From the IMG/VR virus record IMGVR_UViG_3300027852_000192, positions 1 to 20,972 of that record: 20,972 nucleotides of DNA; one strand, 5' to 3'. The stretch comes from a virus. Position 1 is the stretch's first letter; every line of letters starts with the position of its first letter. Of this stretch, positions 1,223 to 13,621 are shown in pieces. A model generated the notes under the pieces. The model saw only the letters and a program-made list of their open reading frames with translations. It made no database searches and was not told the DNA's origin. Both the position numbers and the translations under genes were made by a program.

Positions 1223-1260
1223 CAAGCAGACGATAGCAAATAGGTTTAGGAGATACAACA

Positions 1261-1599
1261 ATGGAATTGCCGAAAAACGTTAAGATAGGTTACGCTACCT
1301 ACAAGATTATTGATTGGGATCCAGAAATCGCGGACGCGAGCGGTCACTTTGGGATGATTAGATACGCCAAGCGAGAAATCAAGATCGACACATCGCACGG
1401 GGATATTAAAACGGCAAACACGCTGCTGCATGAAATAATTCACGGTGTTCATTATAGTATGTCTATGAGTGAAGTTGAGAAGTGGGGTAAAGAATACCTA
1501 ACGTGCATACACGCAGACGGGCTAATGCAGGTGTTCTTGGACAATCCGAAAGTTGTTGATGTAATAAGCGCAGCAATCGCCACCTATGAGGGTAGGTGA
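1261..1599 (+). CDS. Small HExxH metallopeptidase-like protein
   Basis: The 112-residue protein has a beta-rich N-terminal half (KNVKIGYATYKII, then REIKIDTS) followed by a helix carrying LLHEIIHGV, with the zinc-binding HExxH at residues 57-61. A later segment, HADGLMQVFLDNP (85-95), is typical of a compact phage family related to SprT- or ImmA-like minimal zinc peptidases. In such folds HExxH gives two zinc ligands and the catalytic glutamate. The third ligand is not certain here. The Shine-Dalgarno sequence TTTAGGAGA lies about 8 bases before the ATG. It is the last gene but one before the late control region. Its substrate is unknown. An anti-repressor, regulator-cleaving or host-takeover role is possible but not shown. 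Confidence 0.75.
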   Translation: MELPKNVKIGYATYKIIDWDPEIADASGHFGMIRYAKREIKIDTSHGDIKTANTLLHEIIHGVHYSMSMSEVEKWGKEYLTCIHADGLMQVFLDNPKVVDVISAAIATYEGR

Positions 1600-1600
1600 A

Positions 1601-1882
1601 ATGATAAAGTGCTGTGTTTGCGGGCGTGATTTCGAAGAATATAAAGATATAGTCGTAAAGATGGATGATGGAAGCAAAATTTCAGCAAGAATGCGCGTTG
1701 GCTCTATGGCCCTTTACATAGATGAGGTTATGTGCAGCCAACCGTGTGCTAGTATAGCAGGCGTCGTGGGGCGTAACCAACACATGCGCGACTCCGCAAT
1801 GGTTATGGATGGCAATACAATCACGATTCCAATGGTGACAGATTCGTATAGTTACGCAAAACTTACAGGGCGCGAAGAATAA
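1601..1882 (+). CDS. Small Cys-rich, zinc-binding-like protein
   Basis: I start this 93-residue protein at ATG 1601, one base after the peptidase stop and just after GAGGGTAGG. An in-frame ATG at 1586 has no good binding site before it. Residues 3-8 read KCCVCG, giving a CxxC pair (Cys4/Cys7, with an extra Cys5). A second pair lies in MCSQPC (Cys45 and Cys49). This arrangement suggests a zinc knuckle or ribbon with a beta-rich insert between the pairs. The C-terminal third (VMDGNTITIPMVT) carries no motif I recognise. A small nucleic-acid- or protein-binding factor is the most that can be inferred. Confidence 0.65.
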   Translation: MIKCCVCGRDFEEYKDIVVKMDDGSKISARMRVGSMALYIDEVMCSQPCASIAGVVGRNQHMRDSAMVMDGNTITIPMVTDSYSYAKLTGREE

Positions 1883-2080: not shown

Positions 2081-2512
2081 ATGGTTAATCCAGTTGGTAG
2101 GCCAACCAAATACAAACAAGAAATGTGCGACATCGTAATAGAATGCGGTAAGGAGGGGAAAACCCTTGCAGAAATGGCAACCGCGATAGATGTAGATAGG
2201 GCAACGGTCAATGATTGGATGGAAAATAACCAAGAATTTTCTCGCGCCGTAAAGCATGGACTCGGAAATGCCCAAGCATGGTGGGAAAAACAGGGACGCA
2301 AGCGCACGTTCGATAGCAATGGGTTCAACGCCACTTCATACATCTTTCAAATGAAGAACCGTTTCAAAGACGATTGGCGTGATAAGGTTGAAAATGACCA
2401 CACATCAAGCGACGGGTCTATGTCGCCAGTAGGTGAAGTGCCAGCAACCGAACGCCTCGCCGCATTGATAGATGCCATTAAGCCAAAGGCCGAAGATGAA
2501 AAGTCGGGCTGA
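2081..2512 (+). CDS. terS: Terminase small subunit
   Basis: The 143-residue protein begins with GRPTKYKQEMCD and a helix-turn-helix at about residues 20-48 (GKTLAEMATAIDVDRATVND), typical of small terminase subunits that bind the packaging start site on phage DNA. The NDWMENNQEF step after the recognition helix and the later QMKNRFKDDWRDK segment, which is often seen in this family, support the call. The acidic, flexible C-terminus (PKAEDEKSG) is the usual contact region for the large subunit or portal. AAGGTGG lies 4 bases before the ATG. The 3' end overlaps the large subunit gene by 17 bases. In P22 the packaging site lies inside this gene; no such site can be picked out by eye here. Confidence 0.9.
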   Translation: MVNPVGRPTKYKQEMCDIVIECGKEGKTLAEMATAIDVDRATVNDWMENNQEFSRAVKHGLGNAQAWWEKQGRKRTFDSNGFNATSYIFQMKNRFKDDWRDKVENDHTSSDGSMSPVGEVPATERLAALIDAIKPKAEDEKSG

Positions 2513-3845
2513 AGAATTAGCAGAACTACCAGAAAAAGAACGCAACGAATTTCTTGCAAGCCTAACGGAGCAAGAAGCAGCAAACCTGTTATATGACTGG
2601 CGGGGGTTCCTAGCAAGACCTGACCAAATAGCGCCAGACGGTGATTGGGACATATGGTTAGCATTGGCTGGCCGTGGCTTTGGTAAGACCAGGCTGGGCA
2701 TGGAATGGGTCAAAGAGCAGGTTGAGGAGCATGGTAAGCGCCGCGTTGCTTTGGTCGCAGAAACCGCAGCGGACGGGCGTGATGTTCTTATCGAGGGAGA
2801 GAGCGGGCTAATGTCACTTTACCCCCCGAACGAAGGGCCGCTATATGAACCATCAAAGCGCCGAGTAACATGGCCGAACGGGGCTATAGCAACGCTGTTC
2901 AATGCAACAGAGCCGGGGCAGTTACGTGGCCCGCAGTTTGATTGCGCCCTGTCAGATGAGATTGCAAAGTGGAAGTATGCCCGCGAAACGTGGGACCAGC
3001 TACAGTTTGGCTTGCGATTAGGTGCCGATCCACGGCAGGTAGTAACAACGACGCCAAGACCGATTGAAATAATTAAAGCCCTTGTTGCTGGTGAGGAGGG
3101 CGTTGTTGTTGTTACTCGCGGCAACACCTTAGATAACCGCTCCAACCTAGCCGATAAGTATCTAAGAAAGATTGTGGTAAAATACGATGGGACGCGATTG
3201 GGTAGGCAGGAGCTTAACGCGGAAATACTCGGAGACATTCCGAACGCCCTCTGGACGTTGGATAACATCGACCTGCATAGGGTCCATAAAGTGCCGGACC
3301 AAATGGGCCGTATCGTTGTGGCCGTTGATCCCGCTATAACCAACACAGAACGAAGTGACGAGCATGGTATCGTTGCCCTTGGGGTTTCCACAGGGTCAGT
3401 TGATAACCGCGAGGGCTATGTATTGGAAGACGCAAGCGTTAGCGGCTCTCCAGAGCAATGGGCAAGGCGTGCCATAGCGTGCTATGATTCATGGGAGGCT
3501 GATGCGATTGTAGTGGAGGTCAATCAAGGTGGTGACATGGTGGCGAATACAGTCCGCACTATCCGCAGTGATATTCCTATTCGTGAAGTCAGGGCTACAC
3601 GCGGCAAGCACGTGAGGGCGGAGCCTACTTCGTCGCTTTATTCGCAAGGCCGCATACATCATGTGGGTTCTTTCCCAGATCTTGAAACACAGATGACAAT
3701 GATGACAAGTCACGGATTTGAAGGAGAGGGTTCCCCTGACCGCCTAGATGCGCTAGTATGGGCAGCAACTGAGTTGTTCCCGTCAATGATAAGGCGGAAG
3801 GCATCTAGCGGTCCAATCATTAGAAAAATGGGAACTATGGCGTGA
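2496..3845 (+). CDS. terL: Terminase large subunit
   Basis: This is the ATPase and nuclease that pumps DNA into the procapsid and cuts it. The N-terminal ATPase has a Walker A loop, LAGRGFGKT (residues 57-65), and a Walker B CALSDEIAKW with Asp154-Glu155. The C-terminal RNase H-like nuclease starts at VVAVDPA (Asp278 as first metal ligand) and ends near SPDRLDALVWA (Asp415/Asp418). With 449 residues the length is normal for this family, which also contains gene-transfer-agent terminases. I prefer ATG 2496, with AAAGG about 9 bases upstream, to the in-frame ATG 2472, which has no binding site. It overlaps terS, so the two subunits are translationally coupled. Confidence 0.96.
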   Translation: MKSRAEELAELPEKERNEFLASLTEQEAANLLYDWRGFLARPDQIAPDGDWDIWLALAGRGFGKTRLGMEWVKEQVEEHGKRRVALVAETAADGRDVLIEGESGLMSLYPPNEGPLYEPSKRRVTWPNGAIATLFNATEPGQLRGPQFDCALSDEIAKWKYARETWDQLQFGLRLGADPRQVVTTTPRPIEIIKALVAGEEGVVVVTRGNTLDNRSNLADKYLRKIVVKYDGTRLGRQELNAEILGDIPNALWTLDNIDLHRVHKVPDQMGRIVVAVDPAITNTERSDEHGIVALGVSTGSVDNREGYVLEDASVSGSPEQWARRAIACYDSWEADAIVVEVNQGGDMVANTVRTIRSDIPIREVRATRGKHVRAEPTSSLYSQGRIHHVGSFPDLETQMTMMTSHGFEGEGSPDRLDALVWAATELFPSMIRRKASSGPIIRKMGTMA

Positions 3846-3869
3846 TATTATTCACTTCGACGGAATGTG

Positions 3870-3898
3870 TTGGCAAAAGCGCCGATGAAGTGTATCAT
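3870..3898 (+). promoter_or_regulatory. Strong candidate sigma70 promoter before the portal region
   Basis: TTGGCA (3870-3875) and TATCAT (3893-3898) each match five of six consensus bases and are separated by exactly 17 bases. The site lies in the 86-base gap after terL, the only sizeable gap in the head genes. Transcription would start near 3905, giving a leader of about 27 bases before the ATG at 3932, including the ribosome site AGGGGA (3915-3920). It would let the portal, scaffold and coat genes be expressed apart from the terminase genes. Confidence 0.6.
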
Positions 3899-3931
3899 AG
3901 CCCCCAAAGTACACAGGGGATCGTGTAAATC

Positions 3932-3948
3932 ATGGCTAGAATGAAGAA
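3932..3948 (+). repeat. 17-bp direct repeat, copy 1
   Basis: ATGGCTAGAATGAAGAA occurs here, at the start of the orphan gene, and again at 4203-4219, at the start of the portal gene. The repeats are identical over 17 bases and the flanks differ. Recombination between the copies would remove 271 bases and place the portal ATG directly behind the promoter at 3870-3898 and its ribosome site. Confidence 0.9.
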
Positions 3949-4210
3949 TAACGGGCATATGACCGTGCGTCACAAGTATACGATTACTGGTGAGGTCTTA
4001 ATTGGTGGGCCCAGAGACGTTTCGCTAAACATAGTTTGTGAGAAGGGTGCCAACCTAACGCTTGCACACTATGTATTTAAGAACGAACAGTCTTCTGCGG
4101 CAGCATTCATGGGCTTGTCCAACTTACTCCCATGCGGCGAGGACAAGATAATGGCAAATATAGAACGTATTTCAAAACTACATGGCGGTGAGGTTTTCGC
4201 GAATGGCTAG
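3932..4210 (+). CDS. 92-residue orphan protein before the portal gene
   Basis: The protein has a beta-rich middle (HKYTITGEVLIGG, RDVSLNIVCEKGANLTL) and a helical C-terminal end (DKIMANIERISKLHG). I do not recognise a family. It starts at ATG 3932, 11 bases after AGGGGA, and is the first gene behind the promoter at 3870-3898. Its first 17 bases (MARMKN) are repeated exactly at the start of the portal gene 271 bases downstream, in a different context and frame. It overlaps the portal start by 8 bases. It may be an inserted accessory gene that used the portal's initiation region. An alternative in-frame ATG at 3959 would leave the repeat outside the coding part. Confidence 0.6.
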   Translation: MARMKNNGHMTVRHKYTITGEVLIGGPRDVSLNIVCEKGANLTLAHYVFKNEQSSAAAFMGLSNLLPCGEDKIMANIERISKLHGGEVFANG

Positions 4211-4219
4211 AATGAAGAA
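4203..4219 (+). repeat. 17-bp direct repeat, copy 2
   Basis: This is the second exact copy of the sequence at 3932-3948, forming the first codons of the portal gene (MARMKN). The two copies are in different reading frames relative to one another, because the unit between them is 271 bases long, not a multiple of three. Confidence 0.9.
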
Positions 4220-6239
4220 CTCCGAACTGGAATCATTGCTTTCAGCGCAACAGAATAACGCTGTAGGTGCGTTAAACAGCACAATAGGACAGCATAGGGC
4301 CAGCTTAATCGACCGATATAATGGCGAGCCATACGGTGATGAAGTTGACGACCGCTCCAAAATCGTGATGACAGACGTCCGCGATACGATTGAAAGCATC
4401 AAGCCGGAACTTATGGATATATTCACGGGCGGCGATAATGTTGTTGAGTTTTCGCCGCGCGGTGCCGAAGATGTAGAAGCAGCCAAGCAAGAGACTGAGG
4501 TTTGCAATTACGTGTTCAACCAAAAGAATAACGGCTTTATGGTGCTGTATTCGTGGTTCACTGATGCGCTACTGCTCAAGAACGGATACGTCAAGCGGTA
4601 TTGGGATGAGCGAACCGTTACCCGCATTGAGGAATACGACGAGTTAAGCCCGCAAGAGGCATATCAAATCCTTTCTGACCTTGATGATGGTGATGATGAG
4701 ATAGAGGTGTTGGAGCAATGGGGCGGCCCAGAGGTTGACGAGTTCGGGTTGCTCCTAGAGATGGATCCAATCGGGTTTAAGGTTAAGATTACAGAGGAAA
4801 TAAAGGACTACAAGATTGTCCCTGTTCCTCCAGAGGAAATATACGTCTCCTCGCAGTGGCCAAGTCTTTCGTTTGTTGGGTGCCCATTTGTAGCACACCG
4901 CCAAAGCATCACCGTTTCGGACTTGATTGGTATGGGTTTTGACCGCAATCAGGTAGAGAAATTGCCAGAGGTTGACGATAAGCTGGACAGTGAGGAGTCC
5001 GAGACACGTTGGGCGGGCGAGAACGGCGCAACGAGCAGCACAGATGTGTCTATGAGAGTCGTGCGCGTATACGAAAATTACATTCGTGTTGACCGTGATG
5101 GGGATGGGATAGCGGAACTACTGCAAGTGTTTACTGGCGGCGAAGGTGGAACCATACTAAAGCGCAACAAAAAACTGGCAATTGAAGAAGTTAGATCAAC
5201 GCCGTTTAATTCTGCATCCCCACTGCCTATTCCCCACAAGCATTACGGGCTTAGCGTCGCAGAACTTGTTGAGGATTTGCAGCGATTGCGCACTGTTCTA
5301 GTGCGGCAGATGGTTGATAATATCGTATCGACAAACGATCCGGATATTGTTGTTGATGAGGATGTCATAACTGAAACCACTGTGGAGGACTTGTCTATAA
5401 CACAGGCGGGGCGCGTCTTGCGTATCCCCGGTGGTCTGCAATCGCTAGGGTATGCGAATGTGCCTAATTCGGCGGGTCAATCGTTACAGGGCATTCAGTA
5501 TGTTGACAGCTTACGTGAAGAACGAACGGGCGTCACCAAACACGGGCAGGGGTTAAACGCCGATAGCCTCAAGCCATTGGCTGAGGGCACGGTTAATCAA
5601 CTAATGACCGCTAGTCAAAAGAAAATACTCTTGATCGCACGCATCTTTGCAGAAACGGCGGTAGCGCCAATGTTTGTTGATATGCACGCTGATTTACGCG
5701 CCGGCCCTCTCAAAAGCATTGCTATGCGGCTGAATAACGAATGGGTCGAGGTTGACCCCCGAACATGGGTTGACCGCGCCGATATGACGGTAAACGTAGG
5801 GCTAGGCACTGGAGACCGTGGCGTGCAGTTCCAACGCTTGTCTATTATTCTGATGCAGCAAAAAGAGGCGCTCGGTGCCGGAATGATTGGTGTTGAACAC
5901 CTATATCACACACTATCCAAGATGGTTGAGCTTAGTGGGTTTAAGGACGTTGAGGCGTTCTTCCCTGACCCGGCCAATGCACCACCCAAGCAACCAGAGC
6001 CAGAAAAACCAGATCCCGCTATGTTACTGGCACAGGTTGAAATGAAGAAATCCGAGAACGTCATGAAGGCCAAAATGGCCGAACTTGAAATCAAGAAGAT
6101 GGATGCCGACACAAAACGGCTTGATGTGCTTATGAAAGATGATCTCACCCGCGATATGAAGACGGCTGATATTGAATCCGACGAGGCGACACGAATGGGG
6201 GTCGCTGTTGATGGGGCGGCTTTGACTAATGCTGGATAA
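4203..6239 (+). CDS. P22-like portal protein
   Basis: The dodecameric portal forms the DNA entry channel at one capsid vertex and docks the terminase and then the tail. This 678-residue protein (P22 gp1 has 725) shows the P22-type pattern: RSKIVMTDVRDTIESIKPEL (about 51-70), MDIFTGGDNVVEFSP (71-85), then YSWFTDALLLKNGYVKRYW (116-134). A core region with LRQMVDNIVSTNDPD-like helices and an RVLRIPGG loop follows. The C-terminus is a basic/acidic coiled coil (about 611-650) that could form a barrel. I chose ATG 4203 because GGTGAGG lies about 9 bases upstream; ATG 4182 is possible. The stop overlaps the next gene by 11 bases. Confidence 0.93.
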   Translation: MARMKNSELESLLSAQQNNAVGALNSTIGQHRASLIDRYNGEPYGDEVDDRSKIVMTDVRDTIESIKPELMDIFTGGDNVVEFSPRGAEDVEAAKQETEVCNYVFNQKNNGFMVLYSWFTDALLLKNGYVKRYWDERTVTRIEEYDELSPQEAYQILSDLDDGDDEIEVLEQWGGPEVDEFGLLLEMDPIGFKVKITEEIKDYKIVPVPPEEIYVSSQWPSLSFVGCPFVAHRQSITVSDLIGMGFDRNQVEKLPEVDDKLDSEESETRWAGENGATSSTDVSMRVVRVYENYIRVDRDGDGIAELLQVFTGGEGGTILKRNKKLAIEEVRSTPFNSASPLPIPHKHYGLSVAELVEDLQRLRTVLVRQMVDNIVSTNDPDIVVDEDVITETTVEDLSITQAGRVLRIPGGLQSLGYANVPNSAGQSLQGIQYVDSLREERTGVTKHGQGLNADSLKPLAEGTVNQLMTASQKKILLIARIFAETAVAPMFVDMHADLRAGPLKSIAMRLNNEWVEVDPRTWVDRADMTVNVGLGTGDRGVQFQRLSIILMQQKEALGAGMIGVEHLYHTLSKMVELSGFKDVEAFFPDPANAPPKQPEPEKPDPAMLLAQVEMKKSENVMKAKMAELEIKKMDADTKRLDVLMKDDLTRDMKTADIESDEATRMGVAVDGAALTNAG

Positions 6240-6459: not shown

Positions 6460-7424
6460 GCGACAACCAAAATGGATCGCAAAGCATTGATGACGTTCTT
6501 GACGCACAATTTTCGGAGCCTGATGCGCCAACCGATGATGTTGTTGAGGAATCTCCACAAGAGGAGACACTAGAAGCGGAATCTGAAGGTGATGACCTAG
6601 AGGATGAAGCTGATACTACAGAAGAAACCGACGAAACGACCGACCCAGAGACGGAATCACAGGAACCGCAACACCTAAGCCTTGACGAATACGGGGAACT
6701 GACGATCCCCATTATCGTTGACGGTGTAGAAACAGCGGTTAACCTAAGTGAAGCTGCCAAAGGATACCAGTTGCAAGCCGATTATAGCCGTAAAACAGCT
6801 ACACTTGCTAATGAGCGCAAACAAATGGAAGCCGCGCTCCAGCAGGGACAAGCTGAACTAGCGGATAAACAACGGTTGCTTGATGAGCAGCTTGCACAAC
6901 ATATTGAACAAGAGCCTGATTGGGTAAAAATGGCACAAGATGACCCCCTTGGTTATCTGCCAGCCCGTGAACGGTGGAACCAACAACAGGCGGCCCGAGC
7001 GCAAGCACAAGGCCGTTATCAAGAAGCCCAAGCCGCGCAATCGCGTGAATTCCAAGCAAGGACTGCTGAAATAGCGGTTCGCGCGATGCCCGAATGGGTA
7101 ACGGATGAAGGGTTTGCCAAAAATGCGAGTGGCCGTATGGCTGTAGCAATCGAGGCTGGTTTTACCGAAGCGGAATATAACGGAGCGGTTGATTATCGAC
7201 TAGCTGTATTGTTGGAAAAGGCGTCACGATACGATGCCATGCAGACCAACAATTCGGCGGTTGAAAAGAGGCTGGCGTTAGCCCCCAAGGTTCTAAAGCC
7301 CGGTAAGTCTAAGGGTAAAGCAGATGTGCGAGCTGAACGGAAAGCGATTAGAAATCGCAAACTGAACCAGCCGCATTCTCTTGATGATGCCCTAAACGCA
7401 TTTATGGAAAATACCGCTGGTTAA
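6456..7424 (+). CDS. Scaffolding protein
   Basis: This 322-residue protein lies between portal and coat, the normal place for the scaffold that directs procapsid assembly and then leaves (P22 gp8 has 303). Residues about 11-72 are strongly acidic (Glu/Asp/Thr). The segment LTIPIIVDGVETAVNLSEA (82-100), followed by ADYSRKT, is a pattern shared by many phage scaffolds. A long Gln/Ala/Glu-rich coiled coil covers about 111-205. A basic stretch near the C-terminus (KPGKSKGKADVRAERK, 281-296) could bind the coat protein by charge, as in P22. AAGGGA precedes the ATG, which overlaps the previous stop. No protease motif is visible. Confidence 0.88.
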   Translation: MSDNQNGSQSIDDVLDAQFSEPDAPTDDVVEESPQEETLEAESEGDDLEDEADTTEETDETTDPETESQEPQHLSLDEYGELTIPIIVDGVETAVNLSEAAKGYQLQADYSRKTATLANERKQMEAALQQGQAELADKQRLLDEQLAQHIEQEPDWVKMAQDDPLGYLPARERWNQQQAARAQAQGRYQEAQAAQSREFQARTAEIAVRAMPEWVTDEGFAKNASGRMAVAIEAGFTEAEYNGAVDYRLAVLLEKASRYDAMQTNNSAVEKRLALAPKVLKPGKSKGKADVRAERKAIRNRKLNQPHSLDDALNAFMENTAG

Positions 7425-7441
7425 ACCTCGAAAGGGTTTAA
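7421..7441 (+). promoter_or_regulatory. Hairpin over the coat gene ribosome site
   Basis: TTAAACC (7421-7427) pairs perfectly with GGTTTAA (7435-7441) around the loop TCGAAAG. The hairpin contains the scaffold stop codon and part of the coat gene Shine-Dalgarno sequence (AAAGGG, 7431-7436). It ends three bases before the coat ATG at 7445. Ribosomes finishing the scaffold would melt it. It could thus couple coat synthesis to scaffold translation or protect a processed 5' end. The pairing is visible; the role is inferred. Confidence 0.5.
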
Positions 7442-7444
7442 TCT

Positions 7445-8392
7445 ATGGCACAGCCAACCAATACCTTTGATACTTACGATTCCGTTGGTATCCGGGAAGA
7501 TCTGTTCGACACAATCTATAACGTCGATGCAGATGAAACGCCGTTCTTGTCCAAAATGAGCAAAGTAAAGGCAAAAAACACCAACCATGAATGGCAGACC
7601 GACGGTTTGGACGCGCCGAGTGCGGCTAACTCCAATATCGAAGGTGACGATACTGTAGCGGGTGCCGTTACTGCAACTGCCCGCCTTGGCAACTACACGA
7701 ACATCTTTAAGAAGGCCGTTACTATCCCCGGCACTCTTGAGGCAACAACTCGTGCAGGACGTGGCCGTGAGCAAGCATACCAAAAGCTGCTTAAAGGCAA
7801 GGCAATGAAAACAGACATGGAAATGTCCGCATTTGCCAATAACGCTAAGGTCGCTGGTAACTCTACCACTGCCCGCGAAATGGCTGGTGTGCCCACGTGG
7901 TTGACTAGCAACACTGTCGCTGGTTCTGGCGGCGCTGATGCCACTGGTGATGGCACGGATGCACGCACAGACGGAACACAGGCGGCCTTTACCGAGGCTA
8001 TGCTTAAATCTGTCCTTGCGAGCATCTATGACAATTCTGGGAAGAAGCCAGATTGCGTATATCTTGGCTCTTGGAACAAACAGATTGCTTCTACCTTTGC
8101 TGGTTCAAGCACTCGCTTTGACAAGGGTGAAGACGCAAAGGTCACAGCGCATATTGATGTATATGAATATGATTTTGGTGCGGTTCGCTTTGAGCCTTCC
8201 CGTCATGTTCGTTCTCGCGATGCACTGGTTCTTTCCACAGATATGTGGGCTTGGGCTGATCTTCGCCCGATGTTTGACGAACCTCTTGCAAAAACTGGTG
8301 ACGCCGAGAAGTTCCAGATTGTTGCCGAGTCTACCCTTGTTTGCCGGAATGAGCTGGCAAGCGGCGGTGCGTTCGACTTGACCACATCTTAA
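7445..8392 (+). CDS. Major capsid protein (DUF5309/SU10-type)
   Basis: The 315-residue coat protein opens with FDTYDSVGIREDLFDTIYNV and ETPFLSKMSK, then NHEWQTDGLDAP. That is the recognisable start of the DUF5309 family of HK97-fold coat proteins, which includes the SU10 coat. Other typical parts are the basic helix ending in QAYQKLLKGKAMKTDMEMSA and the C-terminal strand EKFQIVAESTLVCRNELASG. It is shorter than P22 gp5 (430 residues) and has no obvious extra surface domain, so small decoration proteins downstream may stabilise the shell. The ATG follows AAAGGG by eight bases. A hairpin covers this site and another follows the stop. Confidence 0.92.
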   Translation: MAQPTNTFDTYDSVGIREDLFDTIYNVDADETPFLSKMSKVKAKNTNHEWQTDGLDAPSAANSNIEGDDTVAGAVTATARLGNYTNIFKKAVTIPGTLEATTRAGRGREQAYQKLLKGKAMKTDMEMSAFANNAKVAGNSTTAREMAGVPTWLTSNTVAGSGGADATGDGTDARTDGTQAAFTEAMLKSVLASIYDNSGKKPDCVYLGSWNKQIASTFAGSSTRFDKGEDAKVTAHIDVYEYDFGAVRFEPSRHVRSRDALVLSTDMWAWADLRPMFDEPLAKTGDAEKFQIVAESTLVCRNELASGGAFDLTTS

Positions 8393-8398
8393 ACAACG

Positions 8399-8420
8399 AG
8401 GGGCGGCGCAGGTCGCCCCT
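8399..8420 (+). terminator. Hairpin after the coat gene (partial terminator or stabiliser)
   Basis: AGGGGCG (8399-8405) pairs perfectly with CGCCCCT (8414-8420) around an eight-base loop. Only TT and then TACTACATCT follow, so it is a weak terminator at best. It begins seven bases after the coat stop. It could allow partial read-through, lowering expression of downstream tail genes, or protect the 3' end of coat mRNA. Confidence 0.5.
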
Positions 8421-8443
8421 TACTACATCTAAGGATATTATCA

Positions 8444-8602
8444 ATGGCTGATAAAAAAACACCAAAATTAGTTACCGTTAAATGCACGGTAGCCAACATA
8501 TGGACAACCAAAGGGAAGGTTTTCCTTGGTGAGTCTGTTGATCTAAGCGCAGACGAGGCCAAGGCTATCAAAAAAGCTATGTCCGCAATGGAGGGTAATT
8601 AA
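8444..8602 (+). CDS. 52-residue protein after the coat gene
   Basis: ATG 8444, with AAGGATA (8431-8437) 6 bases upstream, starts a 52-residue frame ending in TAA at 8600-8602. The sequence has a strand-rich core (KLVTVKCTVANIW, KGKVFLGESVDLS) and a C-terminal helix (ADEAKAIKKAMSAME). This K-G-K-x-x-x-G-E-x-V-x-L-S-x-x-E-A layout recurs in small phage head-module proteins. I know no proven function. The next gene starts one base after the stop. A capsid accessory or connector role is inferred from position only. Confidence 0.75.
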   Translation: MADKKTPKLVTVKCTVANIWTTKGKVFLGESVDLSADEAKAIKKAMSAMEGN

Positions 8603-8603
8603 T

Positions 8604-8903
8604 ATGTCTAGCAGAAATGATGCACGGGTTCCTTACCCTGTAAATGGCGGCACGCAATCTGTAGCGTATACAGGAACGCACGGGGTTATTGCTAACGCTG
8701 TGGGCGCCCAAACACGGCGGGTTCTAGTCTATGCGTCAAGTGATTGTCATATTCAATTTGCTTCTGCCCCTGTAGCAACCACGGCGGATATGTTCTTGCC
8801 AGCCACGTCACAGATATTCTTGTCCATTCGTGGCGGCGAAAAGGTCTCGGCCATTCAGGCAACGGATGGCGGCACCCTGTATGTCAGCGAAATGACTTAC
8901 TGA
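8604..8903 (+). CDS. Small beta-rich head accessory protein
   Basis: The 99-residue protein is almost entirely beta strand. It has YPVNGGTQSVAYTGTHGVI, then QTRRVLVYASSDCHIQFA, a low-complexity turn, LPATSQIFLSIRGGEKVSAI and a final GGTLYVSEMTY. Related proteins are seen just after the coat gene in marine podoviruses. The fold and position fit a decoration or head-fiber protein exposed on the capsid, but that is inference. GGAGGG (8591-8595) gives a ribosome site. Its TGA overlaps the next ATG (TGATG). Confidence 0.75.
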   Translation: MSSRNDARVPYPVNGGTQSVAYTGTHGVIANAVGAQTRRVLVYASSDCHIQFASAPVATTADMFLPATSQIFLSIRGGEKVSAIQATDGGTLYVSEMTY

Positions 8904-9244
8904 TGGATACGCGTTGGAAGCCACACAGCGCCCTCAACGGGGTCTATGAGCGTTACGTTGACGGGTTCGCCAATGATACGGAGTTCCACCGTCAAAAAGT
9001 GCAGGACGTGGCCCCTATCATTGATTTCAACACAAGGGTTCGCAATGAAACCAATGGCGCAACACAGGGTGGCGGTAGGCATGTTGGCCGCATACCGGCC
9101 ACAGTATATTATGATTGGGTTGCGGAGTGGACAAAGAAGGGGCTTGTAGGGCCGGGCAACATGTCAGGGCTGAATGATCTTCTAGTTGCCAGACTACGGG
9201 ATGCAGACTTTGCCAAGTTTAGAACCACGGATGGAGGTATTTGA
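8903..9244 (+). CDS. 113-residue protein of unknown function in the neck region
   Basis: The protein starts at ATG 8903, overlapping the previous stop by one base, although the frame is open further upstream inside the neighbour. Visible features are an aromatic N-terminus (TRWKPHSALNGVYERYVDG), ATVYYDWVAEWTKKG in the middle and LLVARLRDADFAKFRTTDGGI at the end. The final FRTxxGxI pattern is familiar from small phage proteins beside head-completion genes. It has no membrane segment or catalytic motif. A virion or assembly role is inferred from its position between coat accessory and adaptor genes. Confidence 0.7.
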   Translation: MDTRWKPHSALNGVYERYVDGFANDTEFHRQKVQDVAPIIDFNTRVRNETNGATQGGGRHVGRIPATVYYDWVAEWTKKGLVGPGNMSGLNDLLVARLRDADFAKFRTTDGGI

Positions 9245-9786
9245 TGGCTATTACCTTACGGGCTGCTAAAGGCAGCGCCTTAACGCATAGCGAACTAGAC
9301 GCAAACTTCACTGATCTGGATACGCGCACTACCGCGATTGAAACTGGCGCTTATGCGACGATTTATTCGTCCCAAAATGATGCTGTAACCGTTTCAACAA
9401 TCGGGACAACAGCAAAGAAATTGGTGGGCTTTTCTAATAACGGGCCTTCGAATAACTTAACACCAGATTCAGCAAACGACAGAATGGTAATATTAGCCAA
9501 GGGGGACTATTGGGTCGATGTTAGCGTATCGTTTGGAACTGTTGCGCCCGGCGATTCTGGATTATACGAGTTTCACGTCAGGGTAAACGATGTAGAAACG
9601 GTTGTAGAGTTCCACCGGAATATGTCGGGGACATCTGACAAGGGATCGTCTGGATGTTCTGGCATTTTGTCGATGGATGTTGGTGATGTGGTCACCTTAT
9701 GGGTTGAGTCTGACGAGGCTGGAGATACAGACGATATTTCGATTTCAAATGTTGCCCTGAACGCTTTAATGGTGAGGGCTACATAA
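9244..9786 (+). CDS. Trimeric appendage-type protein with C1q/TNF-like C-terminus
   Basis: The 180-residue protein opens with KGSALTHSELDANFTDLDTR, a short helix that in many phage fibers and surface appendages precedes the external domain. Residues from about 45 onward form a jelly-roll-like series of strands (GDYWVDVSVSFG, LYEFHVRVNDVETVVEF, then SGILSMDVGDVVTLWVE). This resembles a C1q/TNF-type head domain that makes trimers. It lies among head genes rather than tail fiber genes, so a capsid or neck fiber is plausible. I chose ATG 9244, which overlaps the preceding stop (TGATG), over TTG 9241. Confidence 0.75.
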   Translation: MAITLRAAKGSALTHSELDANFTDLDTRTTAIETGAYATIYSSQNDAVTVSTIGTTAKKLVGFSNNGPSNNLTPDSANDRMVILAKGDYWVDVSVSFGTVAPGDSGLYEFHVRVNDVETVVEFHRNMSGTSDKGSSGCSGILSMDVGDVVTLWVESDEAGDTDDISISNVALNALMVRAT

Positions 9787-12322: not shown

Positions 12323-12717
12323 GCATCCCAAAGCAGAACTTTGCTGATGTATCGGGGCTTTTGTCGTGGCACTTCGAGTCTTTTGTTGACAGATCGGGCG
12401 GCGAAGAAAGCATGGACCACCTTATGGGTGAGGTTTTTGACGGAAAGAGGCAGTGCTGGATTGCTTGGGATGGGCGCGTAAGGGCTTGTGGGTTAACACA
12501 AGTGGTAAATAATGATATGAAGGTTGTAGAGTTCACACATTGCGCAGGGGACGGGCGCAAAGAATGGAACAAAAAGATGGTTGATGAGATACGAAATTGG
12601 GCAAAGCATATAGGGGCTAACCGTATGCGTGTTATCAACCGCCCCGGTCATACACCCATGTTAAAAGGCATGGGATTTAAGGAAACCCACAGGATATTGG
12701 AGCAGGACATTGTCTAA
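12310..12717 (+). CDS. GNAT-fold acetyltransferase-like protein
   Basis: The 135-residue protein has the end of a GNAT domain: KMVDEIRNWAKHIGANRMRV (about 89-108), then RPGHTPMLKGMGFKETHRIL, the strand-helix-strand that follows the acetyl-CoA site. The acetyl-CoA loop would fall around HCAGDGRKEW (77-86), a loose version of the usual QxxGxG/A. Similar proteins often lie next to ejection genes in podoviruses, and a GNAT-like fold is reported for the T7 internal protein gp13. It may therefore act as a structural or assembly factor rather than an enzyme. It overlaps the next gene by 8 bases. Confidence 0.75.
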   Translation: MDIVGIPKQNFADVSGLLSWHFESFVDRSGGEESMDHLMGEVFDGKRQCWIAWDGRVRACGLTQVVNNDMKVVEFTHCAGDGRKEWNKKMVDEIRNWAKHIGANRMRVINRPGHTPMLKGMGFKETHRILEQDIV

Positions 12718-13621
12718 AACAACAACAACCAAACAAGAAGCGGCCCCGTGGAAGCCCGCACAAGGAAACCTGCAAGATGTTCTATCCCAAAGTCGTGATT
12801 TATATCAGTCAGGTGGTTACCAGACAGAACCATATCAGGGGCAGCGAGTAGCCGACTTTTCCCAAGCAACAAAGCAGGGAATGCAGGGACTTATGGCCCC
12901 ATCCGCAATTACGGGCCAAGCCGAGCAAGCATTTGGTGGCTTTATGGACGATAGCGCAAGGAGTCGCGCCTTTGACCAGATGAAAGCAACCACAATAGCT
13001 GACACTAAGGCGGCGCTAGGGTCCACGCTGGCTGGCGGTGGGCTTAATACGGGGCTAGGTGGTGAAATGTTCGGGCGCGGCCTTGGTGAGGCCATTGGTG
13101 GCATCGAATACGGTGCTTGGGGTGACGCGCAGAACCGCAAGCTATCGGCTATGGGTATGGCCCCACAGATTGCAGGACTTGGGCGTGCTGATACGGCGGG
13201 CATGTTGCAAGCCGGGGGAATGCAGGACATTCGCAACCAGAAGGTTATTGGTGCGGACGTGGCTAAATACTACGAGGGGCAAGGGGCGCAAGCTAATGCT
13301 CTTGATCGTTATGCTAACCTGTCTGGAATGATGGGCGGCATGGGTGGCACAAGTTCAGGGTCATCGACTGAGCCTTGGTCTTTGGACGATGTCGGTAGTG
13401 CAGCAAGCGGTATCGGTGGCGCTATGAAATTCTTCTCTGACAGGCGTCTAAAAGAAAACGTGATGAAGGTTGGTGAAACCCTTGGTGGAACCAATGTTTA
13501 CAGCTATAACTATAAGGGCGGCACGCACCGCCACATAGGGCCGATGGCTGACGAAGTGCCGGGCGCGATTATTGGAACGATCAACGGGTATTCTGTTGTG
13601 GATTACGGGAAGGTTGAGTAA
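12710..13621 (+). CDS. Ejection-type virion protein with C-terminal S74-like domain
   Basis: This 303-residue protein must use the TTG at 12710, since the first in-frame ATG is about 57 codons in. GGAGCAGGA lies 5 bases before the TTG, and the start overlaps the previous gene. The N-terminal 240 residues are Gly, Ala, Gln and Met-rich (APWKPAQGNLQDVL, LYQSGGYQTEPY, many GG steps), as in podovirus ejection or tail-tip proteins. Residues 242-303 match the start of a peptidase S74 / intramolecular chaperone domain: FSDRRLKENVMKVGE, VYSYNYKG, HIGPMADEVPGA and YSVVDYGKV. Ser243 is the residue before which characterised S74 domains cut themselves. The domain is short (about 61 residues), lacking the longer helical end of the full family. 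Confidence 0.82.
   Translation: MSKTTTTKQEAAPWKPAQGNLQDVLSQSRDLYQSGGYQTEPYQGQRVADFSQATKQGMQGLMAPSAITGQAEQAFGGFMDDSARSRAFDQMKATTIADTKAALGSTLAGGGLNTGLGGEMFGRGLGEAIGGIEYGAWGDAQNRKLSAMGMAPQIAGLGRADTAGMLQAGGMQDIRNQKVIGADVAKYYEGQGAQANALDRYANLSGMMGGMGGTSSGSSTEPWSLDDVGSAASGIGGAMKFFSDRRLKENVMKVGETLGGTNVYSYNYKGGTHRHIGPMADEVPGAIIGTINGYSVVDYGKVE

Follow-up and report, generated by a model that had tools for sequence, protein, structure and literature searches.

A 92-codon gene bracketed by a 17-bp duplication of the portal start is probably a lineage-specific insertion between terL and portal of a virus genome

The 20,972-base virus record IMGVR_UViG_3300027852_000192 (positions 1-20,972, hereafter the window) carries a 92-codon orphan gene between the terminase large subunit gene (terL) and the portal gene, and we consider it probable that this is a lineage-specific accessory gene that was inserted into the portal start and is now flanked on both sides by 17-bp copies of that start. 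The arrangement is most simply explained by a fairly recent insertion whose start and stop signals were borrowed from the portal gene. The window encodes small non-structural genes, terS, terL, the orphan gene, portal, a 76-aa gene, scaffold, the major capsid protein and tail genes, with portal and capsid assigned to SU10/LUZ24-like families by Pfam and PHROGs. The left border of the slot is formed by terL (2505-3845, plus strand like all features of the terL-portal region given here; Terminase_6N, E 8e-19, and Terminase_6C, E 4e-16), and the gene that follows the insertion is the SU10/LUZ24-like portal (4203-6239; SU10_portal PF23899, E 1.9e-181; PHROG 1216, E 2.7e-135). As such, the case may be a compact example of how a phage gene is added to a tightly packed structural operon without harm, in that a duplicated start would preserve the downstream gene and give the newcomer working signals.

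The direct repeat ATGGCTAGAATGAAGAA is present at 3932-3948 and 4203-4219, exactly where the preliminary description had placed it, with its copies 271 bases apart from start to start, and since 271 leaves a remainder of 1 when divided by 3, the two MARMKN readings are in different frames, as had also been stated. Copy 1 gives the ATG and first codons of the orphan gene (3932-4210), while copy 2 gives the portal start codon and, through ATGGCTAG, also the orphan stop codon (TAG, 4208-4210), the two genes overlapping by 8 nt. The orphan gene thus starts in copy 1 and ends in copy 2, where its final AAT GGC TAG is the portal's ATGGCTAG read in another frame. Given that the two portal-start copies provide both gene ends, the unique insert between them (3949-4202; 254 bp, or 84 codons plus 2 nt) needs neither signal.

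The repeat is the longest exact direct repeat of the window, where only its two copies match at up to 3 mismatches (0.05 expected), and a 17-bp repeat within 300 nt arose in 0 of 200 Markov-1 simulated windows, against 1% for one located anywhere; the probability of such a repeat by chance is thus very low. In addition, a second IMG/VR contig (L002) has both copies, the same spacing and an identical insert. As L002 can be told apart from the window through a substitution at 3178, several N and a deletion of about 0.6 kb (window 1259-1871), the structure is not the error of one assembly. We give next to no weight to an assembly artefact or chance, as the sequence of the insert is unique, its codon usage is biased as in a coding region, and the distinguishable L002 has the same structure. 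The segment that L002 lacks (at about its position 1939) holds two small genes, an ORF at 1261-1599 with an HEIIH motif and an ORF at 1586-1882; with a few scrambled bases at the join, it has the appearance of a natural accessory-gene indel between near-identical phages.

Short repeats at gene starts are also known as the start-associated sequences (SAS) of cluster K mycobacteriophages, which are 13 bp long, precede the start codon, encompass the ribosome site (AGGAG) and occur in 11-19 copies (PMC3203893). On this model, the repeat might be a functional element, such as a protein- or RNA-binding site or an optimized translation start, that arose or was kept by selection at both genes, and both copies do lie exactly at starts with good Shine-Dalgarno sites. 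However, unlike the SAS, the repeat is limited to two copies in the window, with none elsewhere even at 3 mismatches, it extends from the ATG onwards and has no ribosome site within it, and the relatives have one copy, which makes such an origin very improbable.

The repeat sequence is native to the portal gene, as the portals of the relatives open with the same kind of start. The window portal is 79% identical to that of L047, 78% to that of L003, 75% to that of L006 and 70% to that of L004. The portal starts are ATGGCAAAATTGAAGAA in L003, ATGGCTAAAATGACAAA in L004, ATGGCTAAAATGACGAA in L006 and ATGGCTAAAATGAAAAC in L047, with ATGGCTAA opening the gene in L004, L006 and L047, and the relatives' proteins begin MAKLKKSELESLL, MAKMTKAALEALL, MAKMTNTELES and MAKMKTAELES. 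The earlier suggestion that the portal initiation region was duplicated therefore stands, with a single copy in the relatives. The starts of the close relatives differ from that of the window at no fewer than (at least) 2 of 17 positions, whereas the two window copies are identical, so that the event must be later than that divergence, or the copies were homogenized. L047 is CALCGO010000568.1, a contig binned in an uncultured Rhodobacterales metagenome bin (MAG), and as it is a close relative of the window phage, a Rhodobacterales host is suggested for the latter.

Two relatives serve as empty sites. In L047, whose capsid is 90% identical to that of the window and whose terL is 76% identical over its full length, terL and portal are two bases apart (terL-TAG-ac-ATG portal) with no gene between them, and in L003 a leader homologous to that of the window runs directly into portal, so that L003 shows the arrangement expected of the window in the absence of the 271-bp unit. 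Thus the late insertion proposed in the preliminary description is well supported, and far from all relatives carrying the gene with unrelated start regions, which that description had singled out as contrary to its proposal, terL abuts portal in L047. Removal of the unit would likewise, as had been proposed, join the promoter-like site to portal, since the homologous leader of L003 lies directly before portal at the same distance. Against this reading, the empty-site relatives have portal proteins that differ by 21-22%; these are the nearest empty sites, no near-identical genome without exactly the 271-bp unit having been found in the collections searched, and the exact event is not isolated.

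We surveyed 84 loci, redundant ones included, that have a portal of the window's family and a terL-like ORF upstream, with portal starts assigned by similarity. In 50 of the 84, terL lies at most 17 nt from portal, and the others carry varied small genes, among them genes of 44 aa (L003), 71 aa (L004) and 74 aa (L010), a putative peptidase in Sinorhizobium phage phiM5 and a 56-aa ORF in a Microcystis phage. The longest exact match to the portal start within the gap was 17 nt in the window lineage and 10 nt in the next highest locus, the duplication being unique to the window lineage among the 84 loci. Given these varied occupants and a duplication found in the window lineage only, the terL-portal slot is a recurrent insertion site and its occupant in the window is recent. 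The idea that the family generally acquires inserts flanked by repeats was rejected, as no other surveyed locus has one. The close relatives and the differently filled slot make gene gain at one site testable.

The same survey bears on the opposite direction of change, in which L003, L047 and others have lost an ancestral 271-bp unit through recombination between the repeats. Direct repeats promote deletion, and for the 29-bp repeats of mycobacteriophage LRRHood, too, gain and loss were not told apart (PMC3029335). Yet the identity of the copies argues for youth, given how the portal starts have diverged among the relatives; moreover, empty sites are the most frequent state in the family and no relative has a homologue; ancestral loss is hence improbable in our view, and the event would have been a gain, not a loss. 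Loss of the unit by recombination between the repeats, as envisaged before, is plausible, and the unit is still present in L002, the single close variant.

Between terL and the orphan gene lies a leader (3862-3931) with a -35-like TTGGCA (3870-3875) and a -10-like TATCAT (3893-3898) with a 17-nt spacer (TTGGCA-N17-TATCAT, 3870-3898, where a promoter had been claimed), followed by a Shine-Dalgarno-like AGGGGA (3915-3920; anti-SD duplex -6.5 kcal/mol). Window positions 3862-3914 align to L003 2198-2249, directly before the L003 portal, with a local score of 41 versus 16.5 +- 2.8 in shuffles (reached by 0 of 500). The L003 leader has TTGGCA-N17-TATNAT at the same distance from the ATG, with 11 of the 12 hexamer bases kept and 6 mismatches in the first 11 spacer positions, the conserved blocks TGTTGGCA and GAAGTGTATNATA being the -35/-10 pair with a diverged spacer between them. 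Promoter-like sites are no commoner in the window than in shuffles (20 versus 25.1 +- 5.2), so that only its conservation in L003 makes the 3870-3898 site credible, and on this ground the leader might function as an active promoter. L047 has no leader at all, and the leader's own history thus includes loss or transfer. A 28-aa ORF in this region (3842-3928) was considered as a coding leader peptide and rejected, as it has no coding signal (score reached by 226 of 500 shuffles) and the changes between it and L003 are not concentrated at third codon positions. For portal, the present ribosome site appears to be GGTGAGG (4187-4193; -6.0 kcal/mol; 9 nt before ATG 4203), which lies inside the end of the orphan gene and is part of the insert. 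The sequences GGTGAGGTCTT (3989-3999) and GGTGAGGTTTT (4187-4197) inside the orphan gene match at 10 of 11 positions, possibly by chance, and the second of the pair serves as the portal ribosome site.

The sequence itself shows the repeat and the overlap, the two leaders, the two ribosome-site-like sequences, the coding bias and, in relatives, the empty sites; on this basis, the course of the insertion may be pictured as follows. Before the event, the promoter-like leader would have run straight into the portal ATG, as L003 suggests. Afterwards, the original leader and the first six codons (copy 1) would drive and initiate the new gene, which would run through the 254 bp into copy 2, where the portal's ATGGCTAG would act as a stop in its frame, and portal would restart at the same place from the ribosome site inside the end of the new gene. 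The newcomer would then likely be expressed as the first cistron of a portal-scaffold-capsid operon, and the 8-nt overlap would be expected to couple portal translation to it. Here we speculate that the unit was acquired either by illegitimate or annealing-type recombination with target duplication, or by integration of a small circle that shared the 17 bp.

The orphan reading frame scored best of six frames by codon usage, with the score reached by 2 of 1000 shuffles, and its GC content is 46%, compared with 52% for terL and 50% for portal. An alternative internal start, ATG 3959 (Met10), has an anti-SD duplex of -2.3 kcal/mol versus -6.5 kcal/mol for 3932, and could be an older start despite its poor ribosome site. 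An origin of the insert as a diverged tandem copy of the portal 5' end was rejected, as the two are dissimilar beyond the 17 bp (253 of 300 shuffles reach the score). No homologue of the protein was found in Pfam, PHROGs, PDB, phage records or plasmids, nor in 395 genomes of the family of the Rhodobacterales MAG, nor, beyond L002, in pattern scans of IMG/VR and GTDB, which reach close relatives only. Likewise, the insert DNA had no match in the fetched loci except L002 and loci derived from the window, and none in phage records. In Pfam, PHROGs and PDB, matches that might point to a function were weak and inconsistent, with armadillo designs (E 0.005) on one side and a mostly beta AlphaFold (AF2) model on the other, which is itself poor (pLDDT 46) and not usable. 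The 92-residue product is most likely a dispensable accessory protein that would be translated just before portal.

A less likely alternative is that the gene is old and only the duplication recent, namely that a family member already stood before portal in the common ancestor with L006 and that its start was later overwritten by a portal-start copy, through gene conversion or slippage between the two nearby start regions. The L006 contig begins 41 nt before portal, and its upstream frame ends with ISNYGGRHIFNG and a stop on ATGGCTAA, much as the orphan gene ends with ISKLHGGEVFANG and a stop on ATGGCTAG; the portal Shine-Dalgarno site and docking geometry are also similar in L006 and the window. 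However, this weak likeness covers about 15 residues and partly reflects the shared Shine-Dalgarno site and start-stop overlap, its DNA score was reached by 15 of 500 shuffles before correction for several comparisons, and L047, with the same terL type, has no gene in the slot at all. If the L006 similarity is real, the gene or its end would predate the 17-bp duplication, and the latter would be a secondary or homogenized feature. The 71-aa gene of L004 (ending MANG) and the truncated L006 frame (ending FNG) finish on the same ATGGCTAR site. This was noted for a more far-reaching reading, which we regard as unlikely, that the ATGGCTAR portal start with its built-in out-of-frame stop is a docking site for cargo DNA and the slot a place of gene birth. 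If so, an insert arriving with a duplicated copy would gain promoter, ribosome site, start, stop and coupling to portal, and open fragments could become translated genes in one step.

Returning to the insertion of an accessory gene, the closest precedents are found among mycobacteriophages, and phage insertions flanked by direct repeats are already known. In LRRHood (cluster C1), a 1.35-kb insertion lies between 29-bp direct repeats of which relatives have one copy (PMC3029335). Similarly, the extra gene of the window is flanked by a pair of exact short repeats, of which relatives retain a single diverged version at the portal start, and gain or loss would proceed by recombination at the repeat. 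Unlike in the window, the LRRHood repeat is found where genes end, ahead of the following gene, and four genes form its cargo, whereas the window repeat is 17 bp, extends exactly from the ATG of the downstream gene and gives the start and stop of one gene. Island3 gene 68 (cluster I) is an 85-residue orphan inserted between genes and sharing its end with a neighbour (PMC3029335); as in the window, a small orphan between genes shares a stretch with its neighbour, but in Island3 that neighbour is the upstream gene, with about 50 bp and 18 C-terminal residues in common, and in the window it is the N-terminus that is shared with the downstream gene.

The preliminary description had called the gene a moron. 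Morons are described as additional segments in which an ORF typically stands between a promoter and a terminator (PMC3029335), and the window resembles them in having a small additional gene that separates two genes found side by side in relatives (L047, and the short gaps of the survey), a promoter-like site before it and slightly lower GC. In the strict sense, however, the term does not hold: the gene has no promoter of its own, as the leader is that of portal, is homologous to that of L003, predates the gene and is not part of the repeat-bounded unit, and a search for terminator-like sites on the plus strand in 3846-4203 was negative, the gene overlapping portal and being fully embedded in the late operon. 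The orphan gene is thus not a textbook moron, being present here and absent in relatives but lacking both flanking signals. MPME and transposon insertions are alike in being small and in possibly duplicating their target, but the insert has no terminal inverted repeats at its ends, no transposase and, in the scans, no copies beyond that in L002. A length of 17 bp is long for a target-site duplication. A limited literature search, which is weak evidence of absence, found no report of a duplicated portal start, and the case is an unusually tidy variation on a known way in which phages gain genes.

Lineage-specific inserts also occur at other junctions of the structural module, where L047 has about 1.7 kb that separates portal from the 76-aa gene (8020-9698) and L003 about 1.5 kb that separates capsid from the gene after it (6629-8196), and neither insert is flanked by a direct repeat of 14 nt or longer. 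In addition, terL is mosaic: the full-length version is common to the window and L047, and L003, L004, L008 and L021 match it only in the C-terminal ~240 residues, from about residue 205, having a different N-terminal ATPase domain beside the same portal. Further downstream in the window, the C-terminus encoded at 12710-13621 (SDRRLKENV...YSYNYKGG...GPMADEV) looks, by eye, like a peptidase S74-type intramolecular chaperone domain of tail proteins.
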